This document shows positions 1 to 10,672 of a stretch of 64,000 nucleotides of DNA, piece by piece. Origin of the DNA: Baaleninema simplex PCC 7105 (GTDB lineage: Bacteria; Cyanobacteriota; Cyanobacteriia; Cyanobacteriales; Geitlerinemataceae); assembly GCF_000332355.1 (NCBI RefSeq), contig NZ_KB235958.1:3799721-3863720 (forward strand), given 5' to 3'. The notes under the pieces are model-generated. The model was given only the letters and a program-made list of their open reading frames with translations. It was not told the origin of the DNA and did not search any database. Position 1 is the stretch's first letter. Each line of letters opens with the position of its first letter. Both the position numbers and the translations under genes were made by a program.

Positions 1-1437
1 CATGAATCCCTTGAAACATTGAAATATCCATCGGAGAGTTGGTCGATCGGTTAGACGACCTAACTGATTTTTGACGCCAGTTTTTAGCCGCTTCAAAGTT
101 TTCCGAATTTGTCGTTGTCCCAGAGTGTAAACCAATAAGCATAAGCCCATAATGAATCCCAAAGCTTCAATCCGGTGAGGAGATTTAAGAAAAACGCTAT
201 CCGTTAAAAATAGCGGGTCTTTCAGAAAGCCAAAACCTCGTTCGACTGACTGTTGCTCTTTGTAGTTCGAGAGCATTGAATCAGCGGTTAATTCTTCTGA
301 GTTTAAAACATTCGTCGCCAAGATAAATCGTCCGGCACTTCGTTTTTTTATCTCGACTGAAGCTTCATCAATTGTGACGTTCGCTTTGACTTGATAGACC
401 CCAGAATTTTCCGTAATTTCTAAATCGGTAATTTGGTGATACTTCGACTTTCTTAAAAGGCGAAATGCTGCTTTTTCGGCATCAGCGGCACAAGCAAATT
501 CTCGAACACTTAACTCTCGGAGTTTCTTTTGGGCGGACTCACCATCTTTCTGGATTTTTCTCTAATTTTTTTAAATCTGATTCTTTCCTTTTTTGACTTT
601 CGACTAATAACCATCTTTGCTCAACATCGGCATAGTTTTGTTGAGATTCTTGAAAACGATAACCCGTAAGTTGACTCGCTTTTAACTCGCTTTCCTCTAC
701 CGATTCTACTAAATTCTTCGCTGCTTTTACCGTCACGGGAACTCGACTCAACCATTTAACTTCCTTGGCAATTTGTAGATTTTCCTGGGTGTAAAAAGCA
801 CTATCAGCCACCGTTAAACTTTCAAACTGAAATTGTTTTTAAACTCAACCATCGATCGACCAAATTGCTTTGAGTCTGAGTCGTTTCCCGAACCCATCTT
901 CATCCAAAGTGGCACATCGCCATCTCCAGTGCAGATTAAATTCATCAGAAATTGCTTTAAATCCGGGCGATGGTCTCTTGAATATCCGTAAGTAATTTCA
1001 ATCGTTCCCGATTCCCCGGAGTTAGGGTAGTCTCCATGAACGTGAAACGAACTTGAGTCGAGATGGTTGGAATTTACCGTTAATTCATACTTTTTTACCG
1101 TGGCTAAGGCAATGGCCACAAAAATTCGATTGAGTCCAAATCGATAAATTTTATCGAGAACCCTGCCCAGTCGATCGTCATTTAAATACTCGGCTTTAAT
1201 TCCTTCTCCCAGTAGGTTTTCTACCGCCTTACTTTCAAAGAAATTCTTAAAAATATAAAGAGGGGATGACACTAATCCCATGCCATTTAAAATCATGGCT
1301 TTAACGACGAGACCCGCGCTAACTTTTTCCGTCTTTTTTTCTCCGAGTAAGTCGTTGACGATTTCGACAATTCCGATTTCGTCAATGATTCCCGCCACTA
1401 ACCCCAAGTGGTCTAAATTTTTGACCTCTACCGACAT
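1..1437 (-). pseudogene. IS1634-family transposase, frameshifted, runs off left edge
   Basis: Translation of the minus strand gives an IS1634-type transposase in three pieces. The first, 1437 to 814, is a DUF4277-like N-terminal region with the HLDSSSFHVHG stretch. The second runs 811 to 539. The third, in another frame, runs from about 545 to the window edge and has the conserved C-terminal block SVERGFGFLKDPLF followed by LGFIMGLCLLVYTLGQRQIR. Joining the pieces needs one frame change near 830 (a short T run, AATTTC where AATTTTC would keep frame) and one near 550 (an A run). All parts are collinear and well preserved, so the inactivation is recent, or the frame changes are sequencing errors in homopolymers. 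The C-terminus and one IS end lie outside the window. Start is the ATG at 1437. Confidence 0.85.
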
Positions 1438-1525
1438 AGTCTCTTCCTTTTTCTGATGGCTACATTTTTTGATGATGACAGAGTCTCTTCCTTTTTCTGA
1501 TGGCTACATTTTTTGATGATGACAG
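1438..1525. repeat. Two perfect tandem copies of a 44-bp unit upstream of the transposase
   Basis: Positions 1438-1481 and 1482-1525 are identical 44-bp units beginning AGTCTCTTCC and ending GATGATGACAG. They start immediately upstream of the transposase start codon at 1437, so this is the left flank or end region of the IS. A duplicated end segment could affect transposase expression or mark an aborted transposition. From 1526 to 1736 nothing recognisable is seen. Confidence 0.85.
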
Positions 1526-1736
1526 AAAAGCTTGCCGGAAGTCATTCTGCATATCCTACTATTTTTGTCAAGTCAGTTGGCTCTTGAATGTTATTTTCAA
1601 GTCAAGGGGTCAGTTGGCTGAGTCGAAATACCTAATTCCTTTCCGATTCAATTTATACTACTTATACACTACATTTGAAGTGCGGAATGTGGGTTCTAAT
1701 GCAATCCACTTCACTGTTATCGTTCCACTGGGATTT

Positions 1737-2039
1737 ATGATTTGGCTGATTGGCGGAACGAGCGAAAGTCGATCGATCGCCTTGCAGCTCAGTCAGCAGG
1801 GGTGCAGTTGGGTGGCAACGGTGGTGACTCCCTCTGCGGTGCGTCTCTATCAGGGGTTGCCGGGACAGATTCATTTTGGGCGGTTGGATGGGATGGCTGC
1901 CACGACTCGAGAAACGGGATTCGATCGCACGGTACTTTACGTGATTAGTCCGGCGTTGGAGGCTCGAACTGAGGCGCGATCGCAGCTTTACAGTCCCGGT
2001 CACAGTCACCTTTTTCGCCCCTCTTCACCGAAAAGCTAA
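1737..2039 (+). pseudogene. Chimeric remnant: 5' part of cobK joined to probable 3' end of cobM/cbiF
   Basis: The first ~135 bases (1737-1871) are almost identical to the start of intact cobK at 4370, beginning at the same ATG and encoding MIWLIGGTSESR. Weaker similarity continues to about 1892. The same frame then switches to a different sequence, RETGFDRTVLYVISPALEAR followed by SQLYSPGHSHLFRP. That resembles the C-terminus of precorrin-4 C11-methyltransferase (CobM/CbiF), which ends in a similar LY..xx.HLFRP pattern. The open frame of 100 codons is intact but lacks most of both enzymes, so it cannot have either activity. It is probably the scar of a deletion between duplicated cob genes. 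The cobK part is certain; the cobM assignment is from memory of the family. Confidence 0.7.
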
Positions 2040-2263
2040 GGTCTAAACTGAAGTTGTTCAAATTCCAAACTCTACTGTTTCGTTGCGGGGTAGAATTCGA
2101 CCGTAATCACGAACAAGTTTTATTGCGTTTTTGGGAGTGTATCTCACTTTTGTAAAAACATGAGTCTGTTGGAGTTTGAATAGCTCGATCGCAAAACCCA
2201 ACCACAGCCAAATCGATTGCAAAAGCTCATGCCTAATGAATTTACAGTTTAAAATCAAGTTCA

Positions 2264-2345
2264 TGGCTCTTCTGAGTTTAGGATGACAGAAAAACTAATT
2301 TCATAAGATTTCAAAAAGTTTTAGCTATCGAATCCTAAATCTTGT
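2264..2345 (+). mobile_element. Diverged ISL3-like element end
   Basis: Starting at GGCTCTTCTGAGTTTAGG (2264), about 80 bases match, in inverted orientation, the right arm of the 121-bp element at 5225-5345, with scattered differences and one small gap. No opposite end or target duplication was found near it, so it is a decayed one-ended copy. It occupies the otherwise empty, AT-rich 2040-2481 gap upstream of the AraC gene and may contribute to that promoter. Confidence 0.6.
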
Positions 2346-2481: not shown

Positions 2482-3390
2482 ATGTTGCCCGTGAACTCAT
2501 CTCCCATCGTACTCGACCACCGCCAGGCCAATCCAACGGAAGGATTGCTGCCTCGACCAACCGTCTTGTCTAGCATTGGGTGGGAAAGCATTCGTCTGGA
2601 GTTGTACCAACAGCCGAAGTTCTCTACGGCAGAGCATCAACATACTCTGCACGCGATCGCCCTCAACCTCCCCAATGCTTCGAGTAACGCGACTGGATAT
2701 CGCTGGCTCGACGGCAAGCGTCATCAGGAAGCGCGTCCGGTCGGGAGCATTGCCGTCATTCCTGCCGGAGTTTCCCACCGTTGTAGCTGGGATTGCGAAG
2801 CAGAGTTCGGGGTGCTGGCGTTAGAACCCGATTTGCTCGAACAGGTTGGACGGGGTTGGGTAAATCCCGATCGCATCGAGCTATTACCGCAATTTATGGA
2901 TGTGGGTGACGAGTTCGTTCGTAGCCTGTTTCTCATGTTGAAGATGGAAGTCGAATCGAGCGGCTTGGGCAGTTCCTTACTTGTAGATAGCCTGAAAACG
3001 AGCCTAGCGATTCACCTGCTGCGCCACTATTGCGCCACTAGTCCCCGACTATCGAGTTTTACAGGTGGACTATCTAAAGTCAGACAAGATCGGGTCAAAG
3101 CATACATCGATGCCCATCTCAATCAAAACTTAAAGCTGGTGGATTTAGCCGCGATCGCCCAAGTCAGCCCCGCCTACTTTGCCCGCCTATTTAAGCAAAG
3201 TGAAGGTATAACGCCCTATCAGTACATCTTGAAACAGCGGGTAGAGAAGGTACGAGCGTTGTTGAAGCACAGCGAACTGAGTTTGACAGACATTGCGGTC
3301 AGTGTCGGCTTTTGCGACCAAAGCCATATGACTCGGTGTTTCAAACGCCGAGTTGGTATGACTCCAACCGAGTTTCGTCAAGGTGAATAG
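2482..3390 (+). CDS. AraC family transcriptional regulator
   Basis: 302 residues. The C-terminal ~100 residues form the double helix-turn-helix of the AraC/XylS family: first HTH around LVDLAAIAQVSPAYFARLFK, second around LTDIAVSVGFCDQSHMTRCF, closing with the family signature GMTPTEFR. The N-terminal ~190 residues look like a cupin-type sensing domain (HTLHAIALNLPNAS region, PAGVSHRCSWDCE), whose ligand is unknown. It probably controls the dienelactone-hydrolase-like gene 90 bases downstream on the same strand; this is inference from adjacency. Both genes lie between a truncated and an intact cobK start, which suggests they arrived together by insertion. Confidence 0.9.
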   Translation: MLPVNSSPIVLDHRQANPTEGLLPRPTVLSSIGWESIRLELYQQPKFSTAEHQHTLHAIALNLPNASSNATGYRWLDGKRHQEARPVGSIAVIPAGVSHRCSWDCEAEFGVLALEPDLLEQVGRGWVNPDRIELLPQFMDVGDEFVRSLFLMLKMEVESSGLGSSLLVDSLKTSLAIHLLRHYCATSPRLSSFTGGLSKVRQDRVKAYIDAHLNQNLKLVDLAAIAQVSPAYFARLFKQSEGITPYQYILKQRVEKVRALLKHSELSLTDIAVSVGFCDQSHMTRCFKRRVGMTPTEFRQGE

Positions 3391-3480: not shown

Positions 3481-4197
3481 ATGCCTGTCGAACGTGCTGA
3501 AGTAACCGTCACTACTCCAGATGGAAAGATGTCTGCCTTTCTGTGCAAACCCGCAGTCAGCGATCGCCTACCCGCCGTTTTGTTACTCATGGAGGGGTTC
3601 GGCCTCACTGGTCATATTCGCGACGTGGCCGTTCGCATCGCTGAAGAGGGATACTTGGTGATGACTCCCAATTTGTACTATCGCGAGGGAAACGACACTG
3701 TCTTTGGTTACGATCGAGTTGAAGCGGCCATGGCAACGATGTATCGATTGGATTTCGGTGAGCCGATCGAGCGCGATTTAAAAGCGGCGATCGCATTCCT
3801 CAAAGCTCGCCCCGATGTAGACCCCGAGCGCATCGGCGTTACCGGATTTTGTCTCGGAGGTGGACTTACCTTTCTCGCCGCCTGTCGCTTTTCTTCGGAT
3901 ATTACCGCTGCTGCCCCCTTCTACGGCATGGTACTGGATGAGTGGCTCGATGCGGCAAAAGATATTACCGTACCGATGATGTTGTTTTTTGGGGGACGAG
4001 ATCCTTTTATTGGGCGCGATCGCATCGAGCAAATCGAAACCCGCTTACAGACACTTGGCAAAGCTTACACTTTGAAACTTTACCCCGAAGCCAATCACGG
4101 ATTCTTTTGCCACGAGCGAGAATCTTATCACCCAGTCGCGGCAACTGATGCTTGGCAGGAACTGACTTGTTTTTTTCGCAGTAATTTGCAAGAATAA
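3481..4197 (+). CDS. Dienelactone hydrolase family protein
   Basis: 238 residues from the ATG at 3481. The frame is open further upstream, but that extension does not look like the family. It is an alpha/beta hydrolase of the dienelactone hydrolase family with the expected triad: Cys124 in GFCLGG, Asp174 in GGRDPF and His206 in NHGFFC. Cys instead of Ser as nucleophile is typical of true dienelactone hydrolases, which open lactone rings in chloroaromatic breakdown. Most cyanobacterial members have no known substrate. It is cytosolic, with no signal peptide. It follows the AraC regulator closely and precedes cobK, with which it has no known functional link. Confidence 0.9.
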   Translation: MPVERAEVTVTTPDGKMSAFLCKPAVSDRLPAVLLLMEGFGLTGHIRDVAVRIAEEGYLVMTPNLYYREGNDTVFGYDRVEAAMATMYRLDFGEPIERDLKAAIAFLKARPDVDPERIGVTGFCLGGGLTFLAACRFSSDITAAAPFYGMVLDEWLDAAKDITVPMMLFFGGRDPFIGRDRIEQIETRLQTLGKAYTLKLYPEANHGFFCHERESYHPVAATDAWQELTCFFRSNLQE

Positions 4198-4369: not shown

Positions 4370-5098
4370 ATGATTTGGCTGATTGGCGGAACGAGCGAAA
4401 GTCGATCGATCGCCCAGCGGCTCAGTCAGCAGGGGTGTAGTTGGGTGGCAACGGTGGTGACTCCCTCTGCGGTGCGTCTTTATCAGGGGTTGCCGGGACA
4501 GGTGCAGGTGGGGGCGTTGGATGCGGAGAGCGTTCGAGGGGCGATCGCCAAGTATGGAATCCGTGCGATCGTCGATGCTTCTCATCCCTTTGCCACCGAG
4601 ATTTCTCATCTGGCGATGTCAACCGGACTTCCCTATTTGCGTTTCGAGCGTGAAGACTATCCCTTAGAACCACCTGCGGAATCTTTACCCGATTTAGAGG
4701 CTCTCTTTCAGCCACAGTACCTCGAAAACCGTCGAGTTTTGCTGACGCTGGGAGTCAAAGCCCTGCCCCGATTTCGACCTTGGCAGCAGCGTTCCCGTCT
4801 CTGGGCGCGTATTTTACCCACGGCTGAGGCGCAGGCGCTCCAAGCTGGGTTTTCTAAAGAACAGTTGATTTGCGATCGCCCCGGAACGGATATTGCAGCA
4901 GAACGGGCGCTCTGGCAACGGTTACAGGTGGATACAGTCGTCACGAAAGCCAGCGGCGCACCGGGAGGAGTTCCCGTCAAGTTAGCCGTCGCGCGAACTT
5001 TGGGCGTTCGGCTCTTAGTCGTCGATCGTCCGTCTCTAGCTTATCTGCAGCAAACCCAGGATTTAGATGAGGTTGTAGCGTTCTGTCTTCAACAGTAG
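4370..5098 (+). CDS. cobK: Precorrin-6A / cobalt-precorrin-6A reductase
   Basis: 242 residues, usual length for CobK/CbiJ. The N-terminal nucleotide-binding motif GGTSESR (residues 6-12) and the later DASHPFATEIS and TDIAAERALWQR stretches are typical. The enzyme reduces the macrocycle of precorrin-6A with NAD(P)H in corrin ring synthesis. The start is the ATG at 4370; the duplicated copy at 1737 begins at the same codon, although the sequences upstream of the two differ completely. It is separated from the rest of the cobalamin cluster (cbiD onward, 9515) by the mCpol gene and the PIN/AAA pair, unlike the tight packing on the other side, so the accessory genes probably split an older cluster. 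Confidence 0.93.
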   Translation: MIWLIGGTSESRSIAQRLSQQGCSWVATVVTPSAVRLYQGLPGQVQVGALDAESVRGAIAKYGIRAIVDASHPFATEISHLAMSTGLPYLRFEREDYPLEPPAESLPDLEALFQPQYLENRRVLLTLGVKALPRFRPWQQRSRLWARILPTAEAQALQAGFSKEQLICDRPGTDIAAERALWQRLQVDTVVTKASGAPGGVPVKLAVARTLGVRLLVVDRPSLAYLQQTQDLDEVVAFCLQQ

Positions 5099-5224
5099 TC
5101 TTGAGGGGTTTTGCTGAATCTTGAAACCCTATCATTTTTTGCAACCTCTGGGGCGATTTTGGTCAATCTGCTATATCTGGCTTGCTTGTACTGTAATACT
5201 TTTCATATTATGCCACATTTTATT

Positions 5225-5345
5225 GGGTCTTCGGAGTTTGTAACTGAAACCGTATAATCCAATACAAAAAAATCAAAATTCGAGAGCCAAAACCTTTGAA
5301 ATCTCGTGAAGTTAGTTTTTCTGTCACCCTAAACTCCGAAGAGCC
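5225..5345. mobile_element. 121-bp miniature inverted-repeat element, ISL3-like ends, 8-bp target duplication
   Basis: The left end begins GGGTCTTCGGAGTTT at 5225. The right end, read inward on the minus strand, begins GGCTCTTCGGAGTTT at 5345, so 14 of the first 15 bases match. The element is bracketed by a perfect 8-bp direct repeat ATTTTATT at 5217-5224 and 5346-5353. ISL3-family elements have GGCTCTT-type ends and make 8-bp duplications, so this is most likely a non-autonomous ISL3 derivative mobilised in trans. It carries no open frame. The right target copy touches the stop codon (5354-5356) of the minus-strand mCpol gene, so the insertion spared that gene by a base or two. Confidence 0.85.
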
Positions 5346-5353
5346 ATTTTATT

Positions 5354-6754
5354 TTATTTTCTTATATTAGTCGATCTGGCTTGTTCCAGTTTCTTCTTTT
5401 TCCAGTCTCTCAAAGACAAAAATAAATCTCTAGGATTAAAAGAAGGGAATTTTCCAGTAGAAATTACCTGTAGAACAAAATTAAATAAATACCATAAAAA
5501 AGTAACAATATAAATAGTAGGTTCAAGCCAATCCCACCCTCCTTTTTGGTTGACAATCCAGAAACTAAATAAAAATAGACATACTAGTATAAATCCATAT
5601 GCTAATGACCAAAATTTAGCAAAATTGTTAGATGTTTTATGTTCGAGATTATTGCGTTCATTCTCCAGCATTTGACAATAAGATTGAAGGCGATTGAATT
5701 CACTTTCTGAAACTATAGAACTTTCATTTACAACAATTTTGCTTCTGGTATGAAGTGTTTCTGCCAGACAAGTAAATGCATAAGTTTTTCTATAAATCAA
5801 GTTATGAATTAAGTCTTTTTCGTCAAAATTAGGTTCCTTAAATATTTCAAGTGAGTGTATACTGCTAATGTTCTTGAATCTTAGAATAGTATATACATCA
5901 ACCAAATAACCTTTGGCAAATGCAGTTACATCAAATATATATTCAAATGGATTTGAAGAATATATAAGATTGGATATTTCTCGATCTAAAAATTGATAAT
6001 CTAAAACTTTAGTTTCAAGAGTAAGACCTTTTAATGCCATATATCTTTGGCGATCGGCGGGTTCCATATCGATATCTAATAGAGTTTGTGGATCGTCAAT
6101 TTTTTTAGAATATTTCCCTTCACTTAGAGCGTCAAGTAGATCGGATATTTTTTTACTTATATTTTTTAATTTATCAGTTTCAGAAAGCCTTTTACCTCTA
6201 TCTTCCATTATGCCGATCAAAGTAACATGGTTAAGATCCCTATAATTTGCAGCACAATGAGCAATTACATTAATGTAAGGATCTGGATTTTCAGAAGTTG
6301 CAAAAATATACAACTTAGTCGGCATCAAGTTATCTTCAATTTCGAGCCTTTTGCTTGTCATGAGAATACCTCCTTTATCCTTATTCTTAATCTTCATCAA
6401 ATTGAGCAATGCTTGATTCGCGCTATCACCAACTCCACAGCTCATAGACAAGCCAGTAAAGCTATTAAATATAGATAATATTTTTTCTAAAAAAATATAT
6501 TCATTTTTCATATAATTATACTTTATTAAAATGTCATCTCCTCCAGAAAATATCAACTCTGCACCACTTGTAGACTCAACAAAAATCTCAATTTTAAAAA
6601 TTGCCAATTTAATACTTTCGGATAAATGAATTGCTTCTTTAACTCTACCACTATTAAGCAGATTTTTTATGGCATTTCCAATATTGTCTCCATCAAAAAA
6701 AGCATACCTAATTACTTTTGATTGAGATTCACTAGATTTGTCAAGGATCTGCAT
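5354..6754 (-). CDS. mCpol (minimal CRISPR polymerase) - Rossmann-like - two-TM membrane protein, candidate anti-phage signalling protein
   Basis: 466 residues from the ATG at 6754; a TTG at 6814 would add 20 residues of unlikely sequence. Residues 14-160 look like the mCpol family, a shortened Cas10-type palm: RYAFFDGDNIGNAI (metal-binding DGD at 21-23) and LIFSGGDDILI (GGDD at 71-74). Such proteins make small cyclic nucleotides. A middle region (about 165-340) has alternating strands such as VTLIGIMED and YIFDVTAFAKGYLVDVYTIL that suggest a Rossmann-like, perhaps CARF-like, fold; this is inference. After a charged helical stretch come two membrane helices (about 382-401 and 413-431) and a basic tail. 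In the described Panoptes system the mCpol enzyme and a two-TM effector are separate genes; here they appear fused. The gene is much richer in AT than its neighbours and lies among miniature elements, which supports horizontal acquisition. Confidence 0.75.
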   Translation of the reverse strand: MQILDKSSESQSKVIRYAFFDGDNIGNAIKNLLNSGRVKEAIHLSESIKLAIFKIEIFVESTSGAELIFSGGDDILIKYNYMKNEYIFLEKILSIFNSFTGLSMSCGVGDSANQALLNLMKIKNKDKGGILMTSKRLEIEDNLMPTKLYIFATSENPDPYINVIAHCAANYRDLNHVTLIGIMEDRGKRLSETDKLKNISKKISDLLDALSEGKYSKKIDDPQTLLDIDMEPADRQRYMALKGLTLETKVLDYQFLDREISNLIYSSNPFEYIFDVTAFAKGYLVDVYTILRFKNISSIHSLEIFKEPNFDEKDLIHNLIYRKTYAFTCLAETLHTRSKIVVNESSIVSESEFNRLQSYCQMLENERNNLEHKTSNNFAKFWSLAYGFILVCLFLFSFWIVNQKGGWDWLEPTIYIVTFLWYLFNFVLQVISTGKFPSFNPRDLFLSLRDWKKKKLEQARSTNIRK

Positions 6755-6820
6755 TATTTCTGAACTCGATAGCAAGAACTGAGGGAGAAATGGCAGTCGC
6801 GCGAACTGTAACAATTTTTC

Positions 6821-6950
6821 TAGGGCGTGTCATCAATTAAATTCAGATCTCAGTTAGGGAAAGGCATTCAGCGATTTCAGTCTCAGATCGGATTAAAGCC
6901 TGAAATTCAGTATTGGCAAGGATTCCACAGCTAATTTATGACAGTCCTTA
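6821..6950. mobile_element. 130-bp miniature element with imperfect terminal inverted repeats
   Basis: The left end TAGGGCGTGTCATCAATTAA (6821) and the right end read inward on the minus strand, TAAGGACTGTCATAAATTAG (6950), match at about 16 of 20 positions. TAGGGCGTGTCATCAATT-type ends are common on cyanobacterial insertion sequences. No coding capacity. It sits between the start of the mCpol gene and the broken cbiD copy, so it may contain or replace part of the mCpol promoter. No clear target duplication was seen. Confidence 0.55.
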
Positions 6951-6953
6951 GAA

Positions 6954-7248
6954 CAATTGTCAAGAGGAAGCAGAATGGCTCGTTCGGGGTACACACTTCC
7001 AGTCTTTGCAGTGGCGGCGGCGAAAGCGGCTCTGACTCATCTGCTCGAACAACCGTTGGTCGTGATGAGGAGTAATGCTATTTGGATTCTTCAATCCTTC
7101 CGTGGCAAGGATTTTGGCTGAACAGCATCATTAGAGTGCAGCACTACCCAACCGTTTACTCTAGAAACGGCGACGGAAAAACCCGTTCGCGCACCTTCTC
7201 CATCTCAACTCAATTTACAAACAACGATCGCCCTAGCTCCCGTAAAGC
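6954..7248 (+). pseudogene. Truncated 5' copy of cbiD, interrupted by a 96-bp insertion
   Basis: 6954-7055 and 7152-7248 together match the start of intact cbiD at 9494 onward with few differences, including the CAATTGTCAAGAGGA leader and the ATG (6975, against 9515). The match stops near 7248, so only about 65 codons remain. The insertion at 7056-7151 breaks the frame. The remnant lies 2,540 bases upstream of the intact gene, with the PIN/AAA pair between the two copies. It is non-functional. Confidence 0.85.
7056..7151. mobile_element. 96-bp insertion with imperfect inverted ends inside the cbiD remnant
   Basis: Comparison with intact cbiD shows extra sequence from TTGGTCGTGATGAGG to CACTACCCAA. 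The two ends are imperfect inverted repeats (TTGG.xGTG.TG.. on both, ending near TAATG). A CCG triplet flanks each side, which may be a short target duplication. It looks like a small non-autonomous element, but no family is recognised. Confidence 0.5.
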
Positions 7249-7332
7249 CTCGTCCTCCATTCAATTTGTCGAAAATCGTAACTTATAATCATATCACAAA
7301 CAGCGCCTTACACAACAAAATTCACCCAAAAA

Positions 7333-7788
7333 TCAAGGAACATAATCGTATCCTTGCAAATCGCTGTCTAAAGACCATATAAAAACACGATAGTTCGGTG
7401 TTTTCCTCCTCATCTTTTCCCATTCCTTGACAATCGAAAGATCGCCCATCCCCGCACCCCGCATAGCTGAATCAGGAAAACGATTCAGCCACTCTCCCAC
7501 TTCCTCTAAATTCGGAAGTTGCATAACTTGCCAAGGTGCATCTCCAGCGATCGACTTTTTAACTTGTTCGACAAATAATTTAGCGAATCGGCGTCGGTTC
7601 CTACCCTCACTGAGTTGAGCGATATGGTTTCCGGTTTCGTAGACAGCTGCCATCGGTAATAGAAGATTTATCTCTTCCTCAATGAACTGTTCTAACGCTT
7701 CCATAACTTGAGTGCGATCGCTATTCATCATCGGAATATTGAGAAGATTACAAAATATCGAGGTATCGACAATTGCAACAGCTCTCAT
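7333..7788 (-). CDS. PIN-like nuclease, partner of the adjacent AAA ATPase
   Basis: 151 residues from the ATG at 7788, which shares one base with the stop codon of the ATPase gene (TAATG), so the two are translationally coupled. The open frame extends further upstream, but only inside the ATPase gene. PIN-type acidic residues are in place: Asp8 in VDTSIF, Glu51 in AVYETGNHI, Asp116 in GMGDLSI and Asp141/Asp143 in WSLDSDLQGY. PIN domains are metal-dependent RNases or DNases, and many are toxins. The pairing with an SMC/RecF-type ATPase resembles ATPase-nuclease defence pairs such as PARIS or Gabija in layout, though the nuclease fold differs. Function is inferred. Confidence 0.75.
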   Translation of the reverse strand: MRAVAIVDTSIFCNLLNIPMMNSDRTQVMEALEQFIEEEINLLLPMAAVYETGNHIAQLSEGRNRRRFAKLFVEQVKKSIAGDAPWQVMQLPNLEEVGEWLNRFPDSAMRGAGMGDLSIVKEWEKMRRKTPNYRVFIWSLDSDLQGYDYVP

Positions 7789-9095
7789 TATTCCGACTCT
7801 CCCACTACAGAAAGAGAAGCCAACCACTCCTTCGCTTTCCGTTTCTTTTGTTCCGTTCCAGGATGCTGCTTGACAAAACGTTCCAACAGTCCACGAGTCA
7901 TCAAATGTCCGACAGAACCCTGAGCAATTAACTCGGGATAGTCTGGAATATCCTGCAACCGAATTAACTGACTCGAACCATTTTCTGGACTTCGATAGCA
8001 AAATACAGTTTCGGGAACGGCTTCGTCTGGTAAAGCGTCGAGCAGTGCTGGATTGTGACTGCTAATTAAAACCCGCAAATCTCTTTTTTTGGCGATGTTA
8101 GAAATCCGCTCCAACAAATCAGCGGCTCGGCTCGGATGTACGCCGTTATCGATTTCTTCAATCACCACCAGGCTTTGTTCCGGTGCAGAAAGCATCGCCG
8201 CAGCAATCGAAAGTACGCGCAAGGTTCCATCTGAAAGTATCGAGGCGTCGTAGGTGGTTGATGTCCCCCCAAAGGTTTCAGTTAACTGTAACATCACTTC
8301 GTCGCGAGGGGTTTCGATAAAACTAATGTCTTCAATATCTTGTTCGGGGAGACTTTGAACGAAGTCTAATACAGACCTTTTTAACTCTGGATTTTGACAT
8401 AAATTATAGATGACGCCGGACAGATTTTCGCCATGTTCTTTGAGGACTTTATCGGCTTTATGACCATAGGCACGCATCGAACTCGGCTCGGGTTCGAGAA
8501 AGACAATACTACTTAACCAGCGAACATATTTTTCAGCGACTTTGGGAATAATCTGACGACTTTTAGGGTTTTCTTGACGAAAGCGTATTTCACTGAGAAG
8601 CTGTGTAAAAATTGCCATGTGGCTGCTACAAACGATGCTCGGTTTTTTGCCGCCTCTGGCGAAATTGTTATAGGTGACAAATACATCGCTTCCTGCTCCT
8701 TGAGGTGCACTGGTAATCTCGTAGAGAGGAACAGTTGAGGTGCGACTGGTGATTTTTTCTTTGGCGACGTGGAGAGCGCCATCTTCTCCGAGACTCAAAT
8801 CAATTGAAAAATCTTTCCATTCTGAATCTGTGGTTACACAAGAAATGCCAAAGGTTTTTGAGTTTCGATATCCCAGGTTCTCGACGCCGCCTCGGAAGAT
8901 AGTTTCATCGGGTTTATAAATTCCTCCTAAAAAGCTGAGTCTTTCTCCTTCAGCAATTTTTGCGAGGAGACGCAAGGCTTCAATGACGTTGCTTTTTTCC
9001 GAGGCATTCGCACCAATCAAAACGGTGAGCCGTCCGAGTTGTAACTTTCCCGATTGATAACTCTTGAAATTTCTTAATTCGATTTGAGTCAGCAT
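7788..9095 (-). CDS. AAA family (ABC/SMC-like) ATPase with altered Walker A
   Basis: 435 residues of the COG4637/AAA_21-type RecF-SMC-like ATPases. It begins with the classic MLTQIELRNFKSYQSG strand. Walker A at 28-35 reads GANASEKS: the glycine before the catalytic lysine is Glu (GAA for GGA). The signature LSDGT is at 287-291, Walker B LVVIEEID at 309-316, and a late SSHNPALLDALP stretch holds the switch histidine. Everything except the P-loop glycine is intact. The downstream PIN gene overlaps its stop by one base. Such ATPases commonly act as sensor or regulator of an attached nuclease in phage defence. The start ATG at 9095 begins the conserved first strand. Confidence 0.85.
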   Translation of the reverse strand: MLTQIELRNFKSYQSGKLQLGRLTVLIGANASEKSNVIEALRLLAKIAEGERLSFLGGIYKPDETIFRGGVENLGYRNSKTFGISCVTTDSEWKDFSIDLSLGEDGALHVAKEKITSRTSTVPLYEITSAPQGAGSDVFVTYNNFARGGKKPSIVCSSHMAIFTQLLSEIRFRQENPKSRQIIPKVAEKYVRWLSSIVFLEPEPSSMRAYGHKADKVLKEHGENLSGVIYNLCQNPELKRSVLDFVQSLPEQDIEDISFIETPRDEVMLQLTETFGGTSTTYDASILSDGTLRVLSIAAAMLSAPEQSLVVIEEIDNGVHPSRAADLLERISNIAKKRDLRVLISSHNPALLDALPDEAVPETVFCYRSPENGSSQLIRLQDIPDYPELIAQGSVGHLMTRGLLERFVKQHPGTEQKKRKAKEWLASLSVVGESE

Positions 9096-9307
9096 TAAAA
9101 ATACTCCGATCTATCTTTGCCAATTGAATCTAAATTCACCCAGCCCTTGGATGATTTTGTGAAATGCTTAAACGGGTGCATCTGAAAATTGAAAAATAGA
9201 TAAAAATGCGATTCTTCTTGTCTCGATCGAGGTAAATGTAAAAAGTTTTCTGGTTGTTTTGGACTTAGGGAAATAAACAGAGTTTATGAAAGTCTGAAAG
9301 CGTTGGC

Positions 9308-9335
9308 GTAGGGGCGAACGGCCGTTCGCCCCTAC
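9308..9335. repeat. 28-bp perfect palindrome
   Basis: The arm GTAGGGGCGAACGG is followed directly by its exact complement, giving a 28-bp perfect palindrome. This is a well-known type of dispersed palindromic repeat in cyanobacterial genomes, and similar GTAGGGGCGAACGGCCGTTC units occur in many strains. It lies in the 9096-9514 gap between the AAA gene and cbiD. It could act as a bidirectional transcription barrier or a substrate for a REP-type transposase. Nothing else was recognised in that gap. Confidence 0.8.
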
Positions 9336-9514
9336 AATGGTCTTGGTATTATAGACAACCCAATTACACCGCAATTCCAAGAGAACCAGTCTTCTTATCT
9401 TGTTAATTTTCGTCTTATTCTGTACAAAATCTGAATAGGGATTGAGGGTTGGCAAGTCACAATTTGCGACAACATCTCTACTCTATTTTAAACCAATTGT
9501 CAAGAGGAAAACGA

Positions 9515-10672
9515 ATGGCTCGATCGGGGTACACACTTCCAGTCTTTGCGGTGGCGGCGGCGAAAGCGGCTCTGACTCATCTGCTCGAACAACCGCCGAC
9601 TCTGGAAACGGCGACGGAAAAACCCGTTCGCGCACCTTCTCCATCTCAACTCAATTTACAAACCACGATCGCTCTCGATCCCGGTGAAGCCACGATCGCC
9701 ATCCAACAAGTCGCCACCCTCGATCGCACCACCGCTCTCGCCATCTGTCTCAGCGATCCTGGCGACAACCTCGATTTAACCCGCAATACCCCAGTTTGGG
9801 CTTGGGTTCAACGGGTCGAACGTAATAATATAGATTCAGAAAACAACCTAATTCTCGAAGCCGGTGAAGGGTTAGGACGCACCGCCACTGGAGAACCCGC
9901 ATTCTACGCCTACGCTCGTCGGTTGTTCGATCGCAACCTGCGTCCGCTGATTCCCCCTCGACATCAAGTCACAGTCCGGGTTATTTTGCCAGAAGGTCGT
10001 CGACTGGCTCAACAAACCTCTAACGCCGCGTTCGGAATTCTCGACGGTTTGGCACTTCTGGGAACTAGCGGGATTTCTCAACCGCACTCGGCGACGGAAC
10101 AGTTAGAAGACTATCGATCGCACCTTCAAACCGCTATCCAAGACACGCCACATTTAGTATTTTGCATCGGACATAACGGACAGCGCACCGCTCGCCGTCT
10201 GGGAATTGACGATCGCCACATCGTCCAAACGGGAAACTGGATGGGAGCCATGCTCGTCGAAGCGGGGTTGCGCGGGGCGGAATCTGTGTTATTGCTGGGC
10301 TATCAAGGTAAATTGATTAAACTGGCGGGTGGCATTTTCAACACCTCCAGTCACGTCGCAGATGCCAAACTCCCCATTTTGGCGGCGGCGATCGCTCAGG
10401 TGGAGGTCAATTCAACGGAGACTGAGGGCGATCGCCTCTCTCTCATCCAAACCGTTCTCAACGCACCCACCGCCGAAGTCGCCCATCAACAGCTCGTTTC
10501 CGCCGGTCTTGCCGAACCTGTCTTTACCCGGTTAGCCCGTCAAGTCAGTACTCGCGCCCGAGCTTACATTCAAAAATATGCCACAGTGGATGTCAAGATG
10601 GGAACCGTTCTGTGCGATCGCCAAGGAAACGTTATCGCTCAAGATAGATCGTTAGGGAACAGTGAACAGTGA
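9515..10672 (+). CDS. cbiD: Cobalt-precorrin-5B C1-methyltransferase
   Basis: 385 residues from the ATG at 9515, preceded by AAGAGGA at good spacing; an upstream in-frame ATG at 9449 lacks this and precedes the conserved start. Family landmarks are SGYTLPVFAVAAAKAAL, the TLPEGR-like VILPEGRRLA, FGILDGLALLGTSGI and IGHNGQRTARRLG. CbiD transfers a methyl group from SAM to C1 during ring contraction on the anaerobic (early-cobalt) route. The last residues (LGNSEQ) and the stop codon are encoded by a short tandem repeat tract, so the C-terminus could vary between strains. It converges with cobH. Confidence 0.93.
   Translation: MARSGYTLPVFAVAAAKAALTHLLEQPPTLETATEKPVRAPSPSQLNLQTTIALDPGEATIAIQQVATLDRTTALAICLSDPGDNLDLTRNTPVWAWVQRVERNNIDSENNLILEAGEGLGRTATGEPAFYAYARRLFDRNLRPLIPPRHQVTVRVILPEGRRLAQQTSNAAFGILDGLALLGTSGISQPHSATEQLEDYRSHLQTAIQDTPHLVFCIGHNGQRTARRLGIDDRHIVQTGNWMGAMLVEAGLRGAESVLLLGYQGKLIKLAGGIFNTSSHVADAKLPILAAAIAQVEVNSTETEGDRLSLIQTVLNAPTAEVAHQQLVSAGLAEPVFTRLARQVSTRARAYIQKYATVDVKMGTVLCDRQGNVIAQDRSLGNSEQ

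Follow-up and report, generated by a model that had tools for sequence, protein, structure and literature searches.

The open reading frame at 1737-2039 of the window (the whole stretch of 64,000 nucleotides that was analysed) is a chimera: it opens with 44 cobK codons and continues, in the same frame, with the final 56 codons of cobM and the cobM stop. It is very probably a scar, left as the novel joint when the boundary between cobM and cobK was partially duplicated. Which of three routes made the scar (tandem duplication in place, capture of DNA from a relative, or a larger duplication followed by deletion) is much less certain. The features at the site, in window positions, are:

1737-2039, forward strand: chimeric ORF
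1737-1868, forward strand: duplicate copy of the cobK 5' end, codons 1-44, recognised by base identity to the cobK at 4370 and by CbiJ/CobK profiles
1869-2039, forward strand: duplicate copy of the cobM 3' end, last 56 codons and stop, recognised by base identity to the intact cobM and by TIGR01465
1865-1868, forward strand: ACAG microhomology at the novel joint, present in cobK (CCGGGACAG) and in cobM (GACGAACAG)
2040-2080, forward strand: duplicate of the sequence 3' of cobM, 37 of 41 bases identical past the intact cobM stop
4370-5098, forward strand: intact cobK, cobalt-precorrin-6A reductase, above the NF005970 cut-off and with PF02571 E 5.6e-62

Translation of 1737-2039 gives 100 residues and then a stop. 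In BLAST, window 1736-1890 was similar to the start of cobK (92% identity) and 1865-2079 to the 3' end of the intact cobM (96% identity, with the alignment ending at 2079), and base-by-base comparison placed the join after position 1868. The head is identical to the window's intact cobK (4370-5098) at 127 of 132 bases, and the tail to the intact cobM (L021:6838-7674) at 165 of 171. As a protein, the head matches PF02571 (CobK/CbiJ; residues 2-61, E 3.5e-8 in Pfam) and NF005970 (residues 1-52, E 4.1e-11). Residues 31-94 of the chimera align to positions 183-247 of the CobM model TIGR01465, which is 247 positions long (E 1.2e-7), and the tail by itself (window 1881-2039) to model positions 202-247 (E 1.4e-6); no family match was returned for the tail by itself in the Pfam search. 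An earlier note on this DNA had described an in-frame union of a cobK start with a cobM end, which is borne out by the translation, by NF005970/PF02571 and TIGR01465, and by the DNA identity. The comparison it proposed, of an intact cobM against 1893-2039 at the DNA level, also gave a match, and the identity extends over the whole tail.

Neither parent protein is present at full length. Against TIGR01465 the chimera scores 31.3 bits, with a cut-off of 259.65, and covers model positions 183-247 of 247; the PF02571 match covers model positions 2-63 of 234. Of the CobK/CbiJ precorrin-6A reductase (PF02571, NF005970) it has the first 44 of 242 residues, the remaining 198 being gone, and of the CobM/CbiF precorrin-4 C11-methyltransferase (TIGR01465) the last 56 of 278, without the first 222.

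Both parent genes are intact. The TIGR01465 scan of the genome gave one match above the cut-off, at C4:3796915-3797652. The intact cobM ORF (C4:3796837-3797673, which is L021:6838-7674) scores 299.8 bits against the cut-off of 259.65 and lies just outside the window, beside cobJ, with its stop 3.8 kb upstream of the chimera. The absence of cobM reported in the earlier note is thus correct for the window, but not for the genome, and the candidate explanation that cobM was lost and left a remnant was rejected with the finding of the intact gene upstream. Intact cobM and intact cobK flank the chimera on either side and on the same strand, in the order cobM - chimera - cobK on one scaffold; the adjacency of cobM to the chimera and the distance between them rest on that scaffold, as two 100-N runs lie between them. 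Upstream of the intact cobM are a CbiG-CobJ ORF, a CbiE-CbiT-CobI ORF, and a sirohydrochlorin chelatase-like ORF, and downstream of the window's cobK are cbiD, precorrin-8X methylmutase, a CobD-like decarboxylase, CbiB, and CobQ. The window's CobK is 81% identical to that of Nodosilinea sp. P-1105. Against PF02571, the CobK proteins of this genome, G018, and G002 reach 198-210 bits, below the 218-258 bits of the remaining full-length matches in that search, a difference that points to a separate CobK lineage.

The proposed course of events starts from an ancestor with cobJ, cobM, and cobK all in one direction. A segment running from cobM codon 223 through the spacer to cobK codon 44 would have been duplicated, with one copy running into the next at the 4-bp ACAG common to both genes. 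The product would be whole cobM - spacer - cobK head fused to cobM tail - spacer - whole cobK, with both genes left intact. Different inserts would have entered the two spacers afterwards or, should a related strain have supplied the second copy, already in that donor.

The joint is built as in a partial duplication: the segment's 3' boundary runs straight into its 5' boundary, with the cobK head standing before the cobM tail. The match also extends beyond the cobM stop, as duplication at the DNA level predicts, with 37 of 41 bases in common. After that the spacers of the two copies differ, and only a single base is common before the cobK start codon. The location of the join at an ACAG common to cobK and cobM makes it look like illegitimate recombination, and the motif fits such an origin as a single observation chosen after the fact; four or more common bases occur in 1.9% of all possible cobK/cobM joins. 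Novel joints of tandem duplications in bacteria form a general class of rearrangement. The present joint is alike in that a segment end is fused to a segment start at short homology and the parents are whole, and it differs in that the copies have diverged by about 4% and the spacers hold different inserts. The mechanism is ordinary.

In Nodosilinea sp. P-1105, the one relative returned by a scan of relatives' contigs with cobK, the cobM stop is at L073:7994, the cobK start at 8001 (6 bp apart), and the cbiD start at 8907. In G018 cobM ends at L023:1457 and cobK starts at 1495. From the order in P-1105 and G018, we infer that the parent genes were adjacent in the ancestor before the event. When the tables of 59 genomes were read by eye, cobM and cobK were found within 1 kb of each other only in G018 besides G000, and this adjacency is not general in the order but rare. 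The earlier note had explained the joint by deletion of an older cobM-containing cluster. Such a deletion is not needed: the intact cobM is in place beside cobJ, the observed order (cobM, then the cobK-cobM chimera, then cobK) is the one that a duplication would produce, and partial duplication is the simpler source of the joint because cobM and cobK are neighbours in P-1105.

The version closest to that deletion idea is that a larger cobM-cobK unit was duplicated and that a deletion then took out everything between a point within the first cobK and a point within the second cobM. The order and the joint would be identical, and the ACAG suits a deletion as well as a duplication. This route is unlikely, as it takes two events where one suffices and as self-comparison of the 19-kb region revealed no larger duplicated flank beyond the head, tail, and spacer, IS copies and short repeats aside.

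Among the relatives searched and the matches listed, the chimera itself was found nowhere else. In a protein search of the 59 relatives, a match over both halves was obtained only in the genome's own sequence, and the widest other spans into both halves were G002 (residues 2-72, a CobK) and G048 (residues 22-88, 36% identity, E 0.008). Some match to the chimera protein was given by 267 of the 291 genomes of the order, with no second chimera among the matches listed. In the literature on cobM/cobK fusion, cobalamin, cyanobacteria, and recombination, none of the titles and abstract openings listed concerns a cobK-cobM joint.

The surroundings of the scar are rich in inserted DNA:

L021:8505-8604 and 9622-9721 (window -1216 to -1117 and -99 to 0): two stretches of exactly 100 N each, surrounded by IS sequence
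1-1695, reverse strand: remnants of an IS1634-family insertion sequence, lying upstream of the scar, NF033559, with the ORF in broken pieces
2482-3390, forward strand: AraC-family regulator (HTH_18, HTH_AraC), in the insert between the scar and the intact cobK
3481-4197, forward strand: dienelactone-hydrolase family protein (DLH, E 4e-53), in the same insert

The interval between cobM and the chimera holds a VapB-like antitoxin, a PIN protein, IS1634-family sequence, and the two N runs. The right end of the IS1634-family element is near window position 1695, at which the alignments to many places in the genome also break off. The two spacers thus differ in their inserts, vapBC and IS between cobM and the chimera versus AraC and hydrolase between the chimera and cobK, and P-1105 has neither insert between cobM and cobK. 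A short dispersed repeat is present in inverted copies (87%) at window 2263-2333 and 5278-5347, flanking the AraC-hydrolase-cobK block; it occurs at 76-81% in at least 17 other places of the genome, with 40 of 269 candidates scored.

Since the two sets of inserts are wholly different, a simple tandem duplication requires at least two later insertions. A single step would suffice if DNA was captured from a related strain: an incoming cobM-AraC-hydrolase-cobK segment would recombine homologously on its cobK side and, on the other, undergo an illegitimate join at ACAG with the resident cobK, giving in one event the resident cobM, vapBC, the resident cobK head fused to the donor cobM tail, AraC, hydrolase, and cobK. 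Capture is a variant route to the same scar, possible but rather less likely than not. It accounts for the differing spacers better than duplication in place, for a head and tail about equally diverged from their partners (127/132 and 165/171), and for a chimera without an excess of changes. It also requires that two strains carried different inserts at this one site. The 59 relatives include no genome of the same genus; neither a donor nor a sister strain is among them, and the search for a donor of the AraC and hydrolase genes in eight genomes gave matches of only 24-37% identity. In transformation, homology-facilitated illegitimate recombination is anchored by homology on one side. It would give the same joint, different inserts, and divergence at the level of strains. 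That the scar is the fossil of such a one-sided capture, made in one step and anchored by homology at one end and by four bases at the other, is rather doubtful.

Several observations speak against the duplication scar: besides the differing inserts and the rarity of the adjacency, the chimera has no excess of changes, and N runs lie between cobM and it. Runs of exactly 100 N usually represent scaffold gaps of a size that is not known, but these two may also stand for withheld sequence. The first base of the window directly follows the second 100-N run, and the site has IS copies on both sides, as might be expected of an assembly artefact at an IS-rich contig end. An artefact is nevertheless very improbable: the chimera starts 1.7 kb from the window's first base, the window is free of N, and the chimera differs from the intact genes at 5 of 132 and 6 of 171 bases, so it was not built from their reads. 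A false assembly join of reads was considered unlikely, with about 4% divergence spread over both halves.

The duplicated piece is probably a dead gene remnant. That it represents a new functional fusion protein of 100 residues is hardly credible. The frame is open across the joint and ends at cobM's own stop, which is weak evidence, because random joins and simulated copies often stay open: 33% of random cobK/cobM joins read through to the cobM stop, and 75% of simulated copies were still open after 7 random changes and 56% after 14. The retained parts of both enzymes are small (44/242 and 56/278 residues), and the fusion was conserved neither among the 59 genomes nor among the matches listed from the 291. 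No promoter-like site was found on the forward strand in 1440-2480; the reverse strand has one, with 1.6 expected over the two strands together. The chimera showed no sign of selection or expression.

The age of the scar was sought in an excess of change in the chimera, and this dating was abandoned, as there is no excess and the changes are too few. The head of the chimera and that of the intact copy are equally distant from P-1105 (28/132 each), and the tails differ from it at 32 and 33 of 153 bases, respectively. When codon rows were polarised by eye, four changes were derived in the chimera, five in the intact copies, and two were ambiguous. If a dead copy had taken 71% of the changes, the probability of four or fewer out of nine would be 0.09. 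A faster-decaying dead copy would predict more changes in the chimera, which counts against this reading, in numbers too small to decide.

Further foreign-looking DNA is present in the cluster. The gap between cobK and cbiD (window 5099-9448) is 4.35 kb long and holds two defence-like units, while it is about 170 bp in P-1105 (L073:8736-8906), where the cobJ-cobM gap is the filled one. One of the units is a single ORF of 486 residues at 5354-6814 on the reverse strand, in which residues 37-150 match mCpol, the minimal CRISPR polymerase (PF18182, E 2.3e-19), and residues 166-452 match PADLOC CARF_m9--CARF_TM (E 1.5e-46). In a published system, mCpol is paired with the membrane effector 2TM-beta (PMC12657230; PMC12657218), and the words fused and fusion are absent from the main text of PMC12657230. 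Judged by its predicted domains, the ORF could be a candidate one-protein version of the mCpol system. The second unit, at 7333-9095 on the reverse strand, comprises an AAA ATPase ORF (PDC-M07A, E 2e-193) and, overlapping it, its partner ORF (PDC-M07B, E 1.1e-59); in PADLOC the two count as a candidate defence pair.

Recognition of the scar corrects an annotation trap, as the chimeric ORF would otherwise pass for a truncated CobK, and cobM of this strain is not lost. Foreign DNA appears to have landed repeatedly in the intergenic gaps of this B12 cluster, while its biosynthetic genes stayed whole. If the one-sided capture were true, the joint would record natural transformation in a cyanobacterium.
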